DNA from: a virus
DNA: 31,502 nt
Virus record (IMG/VR): IMGVR_UViG_3300048017_000005
Coordinates: 1-31,502 of that record
Reading direction: 5' to 3' (one strand)
The notes beneath the pieces were generated by a model that saw only the letters and a list, made by a program, of their open reading frames with translations, was not told the DNA's origin and searched no databases. Positions 4,411-31,502 of this stretch are shown here, in pieces. Position 1 is the first letter of the stretch. Each line of letters starts with the position of its first letter. The translations under genes were made by a program, and so were the position numbers.

Positions 4411-4889
4411 TGTCAAATGCAACTCCAGATGTGCCAGTAAACGACGGAACAAAGACTGTCGGTGCCGTTAAGATACCAGAGCAATACCTAATCAAGATTA
4501 AGGAAGAAGATCTTCCAATCGACGTGATGGCTGGAATGATCTTTGAAGATATTGGTGGCCAAGAACTGCTGAGTCTTACAAGAAACGACATCGTGAATGG
4601 CCAGGACATAACTTATCAGCCAATCAAGAACTTGTCAAGCCTCTACTTTCAATACAACCCAAACAACCTGCTCAAACTAAACAACACGTCGGATGCAAGG
4701 TTCAAGAAGTACGCCATTAAGTTTAGCGACTATGTCCCAGATATTGGCACAGGGCCAAATGGCGAAACCGTATACATCGAAGATGCAACAGGTGATCTGA
4801 TCATCAACGTTCTAAATCTGCCAAGAGGCTACGAGGTAGAGGTAGAAATCCTTGACGATGGCACCGTACTTGATGATACAATATACTAG
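4410..4889 (+). CDS. Putative minor tail/baseplate protein, 159 aa
   Basis: The start ATG shares one base with the stop of the giant tail gene, so the two are translationally coupled. The 159-residue product is acidic and soluble, with no signal peptide or membrane segment. Its C-terminal half (DYVPDIG, GETVYIEDATGDLIINVLN, then GYEVEVEILDDG) has the alternating pattern of a small beta-sandwich, as in many tail decoration or fiber-attachment proteins. I do not recognise a named family. Its place between the tail-tip gene and a fiber-like gene is the main argument for a structural role. The next gene follows after 9 bases with its own AGGAG ribosome-binding site. Confidence 0.6.
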   Translation: MSNATPDVPVNDGTKTVGAVKIPEQYLIKIKEEDLPIDVMAGMIFEDIGGQELLSLTRNDIVNGQDITYQPIKNLSSLYFQYNPNNLLKLNNTSDARFKKYAIKFSDYVPDIGTGPNGETVYIEDATGDLIINVLNLPRGYEVEVEILDDGTVLDDTIY

Positions 4890-29551: not shown

Positions 29552-29577
29552 TAATGAAAGAAAGGAAGATAGGTAAT

Positions 29578-29754
29578 ATGAAGAATTTTTTCAATGATAT
29601 CCTAGGCCAGGCATGGACCTTGCTAGGTATGTTCGTGGCTTGGGTAGTTCTAGAAGGATCTGCCAAGACAATCGTAGGCTATTGTATCTTGGGTACACTG
29701 GCTTTGTGGGCACTGACCCACCCAATCAGAAACACAAAGGAAGGAGACGATTAA
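29578..29754 (+). CDS. Small two-helix membrane protein, 58 aa
   Basis: ATG 29578 is chosen over 29554 because AAGGAAG at 29561-29567 fits it. Two hydrophobic stretches, LGQAWTLLGMFVAWVVLEG and IVGYCILGTLALWALTH, are split by a short polar turn, with a charged C-terminus (RNTKEGDD). This is the topology of small class II holin-like or phage accessory membrane proteins. It sits just before a second membrane protein, with a one-base gap. Holin or antiholin is plausible, not proven. Confidence 0.7.
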   Translation: MKNFFNDILGQAWTLLGMFVAWVVLEGSAKTIVGYCILGTLALWALTHPIRNTKEGDD

Positions 29755-29755
29755 T

Positions 29756-30013
29756 ATGGTAAAAACAATTGGAGATATCTTCGCAAGAATGGTAGCAGTG
29801 TTTGTCATCTCGGCACTTGGTGTTCTTGGTGCTGGTGCAGTAGCAGGAGTAGAAGTAGTCCAGGCAGTTGCCATGGCAGGTCTACTAGGTGTAGCACGAG
29901 TCCTGGAAGATCTGGCTAAGTCATTCTTGCAGGATGGAAAACTAACACAGGCAGAAATTGATTCCGCCTTCCGCAAGGAGCACAGACGTGCTGAGGAAGA
30001 AGACGGTCGCTAA
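29756..30013 (+). CDS. Holin-like small membrane protein, 85 aa
   Basis: A strong AAGGAAGGAG precedes the ATG. There are one or two hydrophobic helices (ARMVAVFVISALGVLGAGA and VVQAVAMAGLLGVARVLEDL), then a basic/acidic soluble tail (KLTQAEIDSAFRKEHRRAEE). The small size, glycine/alanine-rich helices and charged tail are typical of actinophage holins. A holin would form pores at the end of infection, but no endolysin with clear cell-wall motifs is present in this window. Coupled with the 58-aa membrane protein. Confidence 0.65.
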   Translation: MVKTIGDIFARMVAVFVISALGVLGAGAVAGVEVVQAVAMAGLLGVARVLEDLAKSFLQDGKLTQAEIDSAFRKEHRRAEEEDGR

Positions 30014-30024
30014 CTAGTAACCCC

Positions 30025-30053
30025 TTGACATTCCCCTCCTGGGACGCTATACT
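30025..30053 (+). promoter_or_regulatory. Consensus promoter inside a terminator stem-loop
   Basis: TTGACA at 30025-30030, exactly 17 nt, then TATACT at 30048-30053. The left stem arm (30033-30044) is in the spacer and the -10 is in the hairpin loop. The start is near 30060, after the left arm and before the right arm (30064-30076). Confidence 0.8.
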
Positions 30054-30080
30054 TTATGTATATTCCCTGGGAGGGGTTTT
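30033..30080 (+). terminator. Terminator stem-loop overlapping a promoter
   Basis: CCCCTCC at 30033-30039 pairs with GGAGGGG at 30070-30076; GGGA at 30041-30044 pairs with TCCC at 30064-30067, leaving a 19-nt loop. TTTT follows at 30077. It should stop transcripts from the membrane-protein genes but not those starting in the loop. Confidence 0.75.
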
Positions 30081-30110: not shown

Positions 30111-30139
30111 TTGACTTTTATGCCTACCCCATGTACAAT
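30111..30139 (+). promoter_or_regulatory. Promoter for the leaderless acidic gene
   Basis: TTGACT at 30111-30116, 17 nt, then TACAAT at 30134-30139, and 6 nt to the ATG at 30146. There is no Shine-Dalgarno sequence, so the mRNA is probably leaderless. Confidence 0.7.
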
Positions 30140-30145
30140 TGAAAC

Positions 30146-30346
30146 ATGACAGAACACAACATGACAGAGAGCCAACTAGACGTGGCCAAAATGCTAGACT
30201 GGATGACTATCGGTATAGAGAATGGCTGGGTATCAGAACCATTTTGCTATACTCATGACGGAGATCCGTACATGACCGAAGAAGAAGAACAAGAATGGGA
30301 AGACGGCGGAGATCCGTGTGCCCCAGTAATCAAACTACTAAAATAA
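30146..30346 (+). CDS. Small acidic phage protein, 66 aa
   Basis: The ATG is exactly 7 nt after a -10 box. The product is strongly acidic (residues about 45-55 are mostly Glu). The pattern MLDWMTIGIENGWVSEPFCY, then THDGDPYMTEEE and GGDPCAPVIKLL resembles small uncharacterised proteins found in many actinophages. No enzyme motif is seen; Cys residues at the two conserved sites may bind metal. Acidic DNA mimicry is a thought, not a claim. The stop is 8 bases before the next ATG, so the two are probably co-transcribed. Confidence 0.7.
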   Translation: MTEHNMTESQLDVAKMLDWMTIGIENGWVSEPFCYTHDGDPYMTEEEEQEWEDGGDPCAPVIKLLK

Positions 30347-30354
30347 GGAACATC

Positions 30355-31146
30355 ATGAAGAAGACAGCAATTGTATTGGGTGCATTGATTGCATCGCTAT
30401 CACTATCACCAGCACAGGCAGAAGAAGTAAAGTCACTAGTAATCATCGACTCCTATTTTGACTCACGAGTCTCTGGAGCGACCATTGTTTGCGTCGCCAA
30501 GGATTCGTGTACCAAGACTGTAAAGCCAGGAAAGTCTGTATCCGAGAATGTCAATCACGGCAACGCTATGGCAGAGGTAGCAAAGCGACAGAATCCAGAT
30601 GTTAAACTAACCCTATTGCGATCTGCCAATAATGGTGGAGATGTTACAGGAGCAGACCTAATCCGTGCACTTCGCTGGGTAGATGCAAACTCATCACTAG
30701 TGGGTGCAGTGTCGTTCTCACGAAGCATTAGCAATAATGCCAACAAGGGCAACTGCCAACTCGCACCAACAGGTCTCGCCGTAGAGGGAATGTCAGTGCC
30801 AGTTGCAGACAAGGAAATTCAACGCCTGATCGCCTCGCTAAAGGCCAAGGGTATTCCATTCTTTGCCTCTACTGGAAACAAGAGTTCAATTACAACCAGT
30901 GTAACCTATCCAGCCTGTCTGCCAATCACAGACTCTGTGACCGCAAACAACTATAGTCAGGCATTGTCTAATGCAGACACAGACTATGTTGGATCGCTTC
31001 CACCAAGCGTATACACCTACAAGGGAACTATCGTTTGGTCAACCAATGGATTCATCCCACAGACGACTTCGTCTGCTACAGCAGCAGTTGCTGCAAAGTA
31101 TCTTGCAACTACACTTGACGGCAAGACTGTCAATGTGGTAAACTAG
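30355..31146 (+). CDS. Secreted subtilisin-like (S8) serine peptidase
   Basis: ATG 30355 after AAGGAA; a longer frame start at 30295 would bury the signal peptide. 263 residues. Sec signal peptide MKKTAIVLGALIASLSLSPA followed by QA, cut near Ala22. The catalytic layout of S8 peptidases is visible: Asp32 (VIIDSYFD), His68 (NHGNAMAEV), oxyanion Asn175 (FFASTGNKSS) and Ser239 (TTSSATAAVAAK, in place of GTSMAxP). The helix pattern after His (NPDVKLTLLRSANNGG) and VGAVSFSRS match strands of the fold. It lacks the usual GTS and HGT words, so it is a divergent or very compact member with no visible propeptide. It may cut host surface proteins or process phage or host exported proteins. Whether it is active is untested. 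Confidence 0.7.
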   Translation: MKKTAIVLGALIASLSLSPAQAEEVKSLVIIDSYFDSRVSGATIVCVAKDSCTKTVKPGKSVSENVNHGNAMAEVAKRQNPDVKLTLLRSANNGGDVTGADLIRALRWVDANSSLVGAVSFSRSISNNANKGNCQLAPTGLAVEGMSVPVADKEIQRLIASLKAKGIPFFASTGNKSSITTSVTYPACLPITDSVTANNYSQALSNADTDYVGSLPPSVYTYKGTIVWSTNGFIPQTTSSATAAVAAKYLATTLDGKTVNVVN

Positions 31147-31264: not shown

Positions 31265-31337
31265 TCCTCCTTAACTCAGTTGGTAGAGTGTTCGGCTGTT
31301 AACCGAAATGTCGTTGGTTCGAGTCCAGCAGGGGGAG
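31265..31337 (+). tRNA. tRNA-Asn(GUU)
   Basis: Complete 73-nt cloverleaf without encoded CCA. Acceptor TCCTCCT pairs with AGGGGGA (one G-T). D stem ACTC/GAGT; anticodon stem TTCGG/CCGAA with loop CTGTTAA (anticodon GTT); 5-nt variable loop; T arm GTTGG-TTCGAGT-CCAGC. Reads AAC and AAU codons, and AAC is common in the genes of this window. Confidence 0.92.
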
Positions 31338-31352
31338 CGATAGAAATATCAC

Positions 31353-31423
31353 GCAGACGTTGCATAATGGTAGTGCCTCATCCTTCCAAGTTGAAGGTGC
31401 CAGTTCGATTCTGGTCGTCTGCT
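31353..31423 (+). tRNA. tRNA-Gly(UCC)
   Basis: Complete 71-nt cloverleaf, no CCA. Acceptor GCAGACG/CGTCTGC is perfect; D stem GCAT/GTGC; anticodon loop CTTCCAA (anticodon TCC); T arm GCCAG-TTCGATT-CTGGT. The anticodon stem TCATC/GTTGA has one T-T mismatch. It should read GGA, the glycine codon often used by the tail genes. Confidence 0.88.
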
Positions 31424-31502
31424 CTATAGGCTAATCACCTATACGCATGAGGAAGTTGTTAAATTTCTCGGTTCTAAGTGACTTTATACTTAGCGTGTAA
31501 GT
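31424..31502 (+). other. Non-coding tail of window with two short inverted repeats
   Basis: TATAGG at 31425 with CCTATA at 31438 (7-nt loop), and CTAAGT at 31474 with ACTTAG at 31488 (8-nt loop). No gene is seen. The second lies at the window edge and could belong to a further RNA gene that is cut off. Confidence 0.3.

Follow-up and report, generated by a model that had tools for sequence, protein, structure and literature searches.

The gene at this locus raises the question of whether a small phage protein that carries the catalytic residues of subtilisin in order, with altered words around two of them and no propeptide, is a working protease, and where the phage would use it. The window, meaning the whole stretch of DNA that was analysed, is 31,502 bases long and is a virus record in IMG/VR; among its genes are phage genes for replication, a pair for ribonucleotide reductase and one resembling a terminase. 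From sequence comparison and structural modelling, we are confident that the protein is of the S8 type and catalytically competent, taking the two together. With much more reserve, we slightly favour the fuller reading, that it is a minimal subtilisin of clan SB with a competent active site, exported for use by the phage outside the host cytoplasm.

The initial annotation had described a compact, phage-encoded S8 protease without a propeptide. The first part of this description was upheld by the reading frame, the fold and a profile alignment, with export being predicted, and the second by a signal peptide that abuts the subtilisin core (Table 1). An N-terminus resembling this signal peptide was found in 54 of 55 distinct homologues; within this region, the AlphaFold2 model has a low-confidence helix (H7-13). 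The I9 propeptide, typical of secreted S8 members though not defining for them, was judged to be missing from the window protease because, in the model, the residues after the signal peptide enter the first core strand (E27-32) directly. In the branch of L003, L008 and L017, a Pro-rich linker of PTPVV repeats lies between the signal peptide and the catalytic domain.

Table 1. Features of the protease locus and its surroundings (positions in the window)
Feature	Position	Strand	Details and basis
Secreted Pro-rich protein, 616 aa	27701..29551	+	BLAST cluster with the PA14/coiled-coil exported protein of relatives, same position
Holin-like small membrane protein 1	29554..29754	+	By-eye likeness to family cluster 4; no PHROG match
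Holin-like small membrane protein 2	29756..30013	+	phrog_443 holin, E 1.4e-4; phrog_26427 (annotated nuclease), E 1.3e-23
Sigma-70-like promoter	30025..30053	+	TTGACA-17-TATACT; 11/12 match
Terminator-like hairpin	30064..30076	+	After the holin-like genes, before the acidic-protein/protease pair; consensus match only
Sigma-70-like promoter	30111..30139	+	TTGACT-17-TACAAT; ahead of acidic protein and protease
Small acidic protein, 66 aa	30146..30346	+	Directly upstream of protease; no signal peptide
Shine-Dalgarno-like AAGGA	30345..30349	+	5 nt upstream of ATG; direct sequence reading
Exported (predicted) S8-type, subtilisin-fold serine protease, CDS	30355..31146	+	263 aa plus stop; ORF, homologues, AlphaFold2, Foldseek, profile match to solved subtilisins
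Predicted Sec signal peptide, residues 1-22	30355..30420	+	MKKTAIVLGALIASLSLSPAQA then EE; MKK, hydrophobic core, AQA
Asp32, predicted catalytic	30448..30450	+	Partner of BPN' Asp32; word IIDSYFD; end of first core strand (model)
His68, predicted catalytic	30556..30558	+	Partner of BPN' His64; word NHGN; near start of helix 65-79 (model)
Insertion, about 21 residues (130-150), after S1-pocket strand	30742..30804	+	Invariant Cys134; absent from BPN'; unpaired in global hhalign
Asn175, predicted oxyanion hole	30877..30879	+	Partner of BPN' Asn155; word STGN; after strand 169-172 (model)
Ser239, predicted nucleophile	31069..31071	+	Partner of BPN' Ser221; word TTSSA; start of helix 238-251 (model)
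tRNA-Asn(GTT)	31265..31338	+	Directly downstream of protease; conserved
tRNA-Gly(TCC)	31353..31424	+	

When the window protein was searched as a single sequence, no family was matched in Pfam (PF00082 included) or PHROGs and the PDB gave nothing useful; adenovirus fibre matches in the PDB (E about 0.02) were rejected as chance. PF00082 (Peptidase_S8) detects 1 of 40 family members, weakly (E 1.9e-4), and leaves the window protein unmatched. Such a match serves detection; S8 is biochemically defined without it. The Pfam miss can be explained as a limit of single-sequence detection, because a profile of 40 family sequences does find subtilisins: they are the top matches among solved structures (best E 6e-6), with Asn175 and Ser239 placed on subtilisin residues. 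Membership of family S8 was therefore recovered by the family profile and missed by PF00082.

The fold expected in the initial annotation was found by modelling. The AlphaFold2 model (pLDDT 88.9, pTM 0.87) has the catalytic residues at the secondary-structure positions of subtilisin, and subtilisins rank first in Foldseek against the PDB (E 3.5e-9, probability 1.00). The TM of about 0.52 is modest and the rmsd is about 6, suggesting therefore that the loops of the cleft differ from those of subtilisin. For hhalign, an 8-member S8 profile, built from BPN' and seven subtilases of phages, served as reference, the BPN' query itself matching solved subtilisin BPN' chains end to end over 275 residues. 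In the global alignment (probability 93.6), Asp32, His68, Asn175 and Ser239 pair with Asp32, His64, Asn155 and Ser221 of BPN', and Ser122 and Pro186 with Ser125 and Pro168; four unrelated neighbour families, included as controls, score a probability below 1 against this profile. The subtilisin order that had been proposed for the four residues thus stands, with a one-to-one pairing in the profile alignment. A sedolisin (S53) was rejected since that family needs a Glu for the catalytic His, yet His68 never varies and aligns with His64 of subtilisin; in Foldseek, the subtilisins come out ahead of kumamolisin.

The alignment also suggests what has been lost. Residues 77-84 of BPN', within the calcium-site-A loop (75-83), have no partner in the hhalign alignment, the register of which could be wrong by a few residues. 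Deletion of 75-83 in BPN' greatly speeds folding and unfolding, and an easy-folding engineered subtilisin attains the same folded state without its prodomain (PMC4865297). Among the top Foldseek matches is 3bgo, a subtilisin with the 75-83 deletion (PMC7935941). Loss of the loop would be a simple reason for the propeptide to be dispensable in the phage protease. Past the signal region, exactly four cysteines are present in 54 of the 55 distinct sequences; Cys52, Cys134 and Cys188, as well as Ser122, are invariant in the 55. The even cysteine count fits with the formation of disulfide bonds after export.

Relatives of the protease are encoded on at least 96-115 viral contigs, 96 being confirmed in a first scan of viral contigs and 115 found in a second scan that used the family alignment; identities in the sampled set are 34-54%. 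A tblastn search of annotated phages with the window protease and a megablast search with the window end gave no match. No relative was detected when bacterial and archaeal genomes were scanned with the family alignment, so that neither a prophage nor a cellular source emerged. The DNA polymerase of the window is 56% identical to Streptomyces phage enzymes such as that of BillNye. WhiB is encoded by 11 of the 13 larger relatives, and among 14 control genomes only Corynebacterium matches; the hosts of the protease-bearing phages are therefore very likely Actinobacteria. The G+C is moderate (42-48%), and together with the actinobacterial signal this suggests that the hosts may be lake species.

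In these relatives, the protease usually belongs to a block with the order secreted PA14/coiled-coil protein, one or two holin-like proteins, HslV-like peptidase, small acidic protein, protease and tRNA-Asn(GTT). PA14 was matched by the counterpart of the 616-aa protein in relative L021 (E 5.4e-8); a PA14 search of the window protein itself gave no match. Among 36 loci with sufficient sequence, 34 have the HslV-like peptidase; the window is without it. It lies directly upstream of the acidic protein at L008:1616-2134, at L080:4175-4762 and in 33 other relatives, and is a proteasome-like N-terminal-nucleophile peptidase of the HslV family (phrog_1040) in which Thr2 and Lys34 never vary. The closest PDB match to its AlphaFold2 model (pLDDT 89.9) is BPH of Thiobacillus (E 1.3e-11). 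In a 2021 survey, AAH, one of its phage-borne classes, was found in no Actinobacteria-specific phage (PMC8665760).

Of the 36 loci whose upstream sequence extends far enough, 29 have the small acidic protein, which probably shares a transcript with the protease. In the window and 30 relatives, this acidic protein has the conserved words WVxEPFCxTHDG..YMxEEEExEWxxGGDPC. We set aside a role as a separate propeptide or inhibitor, since some relatives do without the acidic protein and it carries no signal peptide. Near-consensus sigma-70 sites, of the form TTGAC(A/T)-17-TAnnnT, are enriched: the window has 7, against 0.93 expected, and they lie at 14, 4114, 7738, 20077, 30025 and 30111 on the plus strand and at 4610 on the minus strand. 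In most of 27 relatives, the next gene after the protease stop is tRNA-Asn(GTT), often as the first of a tRNA cluster of up to 17 genes (L022). In a 118-kb relative (L095:16389-17234, L096:63-16699), a TP_methylase gene lies upstream of the HslV-like gene, WhiB is encoded, and oxygenase-, glycosyltransferase- and carbamoyltransferase-like genes were recognised by eye. A conserved exported protein of about 375 aa (MNSFKK...) with no family match follows the terminase in L095 (12428-13552) and in L062.

In the mechanism that we propose, Sec would export the protease unfolded, and the cytoplasm would thereby be protected. Outside the cell, the protease would fold without a propeptide since the calcium-site-A loop, which slows the folding of mature subtilisin, is gone, and two disulfides, tentatively C46-C52 and C134-C188, would stabilise its small core. 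Ser239 would then attack the peptide bond, with Asp32 and His68 acting as the relay and Asn175 holding the oxyanion. The substrate could be a host cell-envelope protein and the protease might then serve, as we propose with less conviction, in lysis and release, or in shaving the actinobacterial cell surface during infection. Judging from the sequence, action on the envelope is reasonably likely, while a role specifically in lysis or release is put forward tentatively. The holin-like and, in some relatives, CHAP-lysin neighbours were counted for the main reading. The link with lysis is a weak one because the CHAP endolysin adjoins the block only in some relatives, and in the 118-kb relative is separated from it by about 8 kb, on the downstream side. 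It is also conceivable, though we would not expect it, that freshwater actinophages have a natural, widespread family of exported subtilisins that fold unaided, having lost the propeptide and calcium-site-A loop as engineered in BPN', and that serve a conserved block of exported proteins as its dedicated enzyme for processing or for remodelling the envelope.

Another possibility is a substrate-specific maturation protease, similar to QhpE or mycosin, that clips a single exported phage partner such as the PA14/coiled-coil neighbour. QhpE acts once, on a partner from the same operon (PMC7876137), and its model is the best NCBIfam match, found by the window protease (E 1.8e-5) and by 12 of the 40 members; the mycosin and PatA models were each matched weakly, by a single member. 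In the relatives, a gene for a secreted PA14-type protein often lies nearby, and small size without a propeptide would suit a specific enzyme. However, the QhpE match reaches 24.2 bits against a cut-off of 165, no record scoring above the cut-off, and covers residues 31-113 only; QhpE is cytoplasmic (PMC7876137), whereas the phage protease has a predicted signal peptide, and no cleavage motif was identified in the neighbours of the protease. We consider this reading unlikely. To the same low degree, we could accept that superinfection is excluded because the exported protease strips the infected cell of phage receptors or other proteins on its surface. Its predicted export and the block shared with other exported phage proteins would suit such shaving, and the promoter-like sites past the terminator-like hairpin would permit expression separate from the holin-like genes. 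However, there is no known receptor, and the holin-like genes in the block suggest late expression.

Both of these readings, like the exported minimal subtilisin that we favour, presuppose an active enzyme, which the initial annotation had left open between a divergent active protease and a repurposed fold. It had noted the changed words correctly: HGT and GTSMA, which are typical of S8 members though not absolute, are HGN and TTSSA in the window protease. The special significance suggested for them did not hold, as HGN, HGT, HGD, HGM and HGG are all present across the family. HGT is found in 9 of the 55 distinct members and GTSMA in none, the Ser word being TTSSA, TTSAG or similar, and the Ser loop of the phage protease is therefore non-canonical. 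In subtilisin engineering, the position following the catalytic Ser accepts both Ser and Ala. Judged across the aligned members, the altered words are ordinary variation within the subfamily and would matter little. Asp32, His68, Asn175 and Ser239 are identical in all 55 distinct homologues of the first set. As the patterns of the first viral-contig scan contained the Asp and His words, this conservation could be built into the scan, and it was therefore repeated with patterns from the C-terminal half only; further contigs were found, and Asp and His were present in every new member long enough to show both. Among close protease pairs (dS below about 0.55), dN/dS was 0.11-0.37, indicating therefore that the protease is under purifying selection. 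A catalytically dead subtilisin fold reused for binding, to which the altered words and the lack of Pfam recognition could point, is thus very improbable: the four residues are invariant also in the members found independently of the motifs, selection is purifying, and dead enzymes usually lose at least one catalytic residue somewhere across such a diverse family. The active enzyme is much the better supported of the two. Chance resemblance in an unrelated secreted protein would explain why the single-sequence searches gave nothing meaningful, but is contradicted by the family profile, structure and profile-profile results, which converge on subtilisin, and can practically be dismissed.

Phage subtilases are already known; what appears to be new here, as far as sequence and model go, is an S8-type protease outside existing family models that is exported and has neither a propeptide nor a calcium-site-A loop. 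The view that secreted subtilases are unusual in phages was overstated, as a tblastn search with BPN' found 110 annotated phage records encoding a BPN'-like subtilase, counted irrespective of export. The S8 subtilases of Bacillus phages Goe3, SP-15, FADO and vB_BcoS-136, Staphylococcus phage phiSA_BS1 and Moorella phage MTATph1 have a canonical triad and are clear BPN' relatives by BLAST, those examined having HGT or HGS and mostly GTSMA; the window family was undetected there by tblastn. The best Foldseek match in the viral library (BFVD) belongs to the same family: A0A6J5P4E2 from an uncultured Caudovirales phage, with E 5.5e-26 and, over 257 columns, 48% identity. Its UniProt name, 'Peptidase S8/S53 domain-containing protein', is only an automatic domain label. 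The papers searched on phage subtilases, on S8 peptidases with lysis and on superinfection gave nothing on the protease family, the gene block or the missing propeptide, and Kavagutti et al. (PMC6802176) do not mention proteases. Phages of Actinobacteria, very likely freshwater ones, would encode a dedicated, exported protease with fixed neighbours that current family libraries miss, and its target would reveal how they deal with the envelope of bacteria that abound in lakes.

The nearest curated model is QhpE (NCBIfam NF049966), matched over the Asp/His region. It is compact like the phage protease (219 model positions), but it is a cytoplasmic, single-turnover enzyme (PMC7876137), whereas the phage protease is predicted to be exported. 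Subtilisin BPN', especially the engineered calcium-free delta 75-83 form (3BGO), shares the core fold, the catalytic order and the missing calcium-site-A loop. Compared with BPN', to which it is 23% identical (46 of 199 aligned residues), the phage protease has no propeptide, is without the N-terminal 22 and about 28 C-terminal residues, gains the cysteine-bearing insertion of about 21 residues, and has TTSSA for GTSMA. Should its folding need neither propeptide nor calcium, nature would have arrived at the equivalent of the engineered calcium-free forms, and the small protease could be of practical use.
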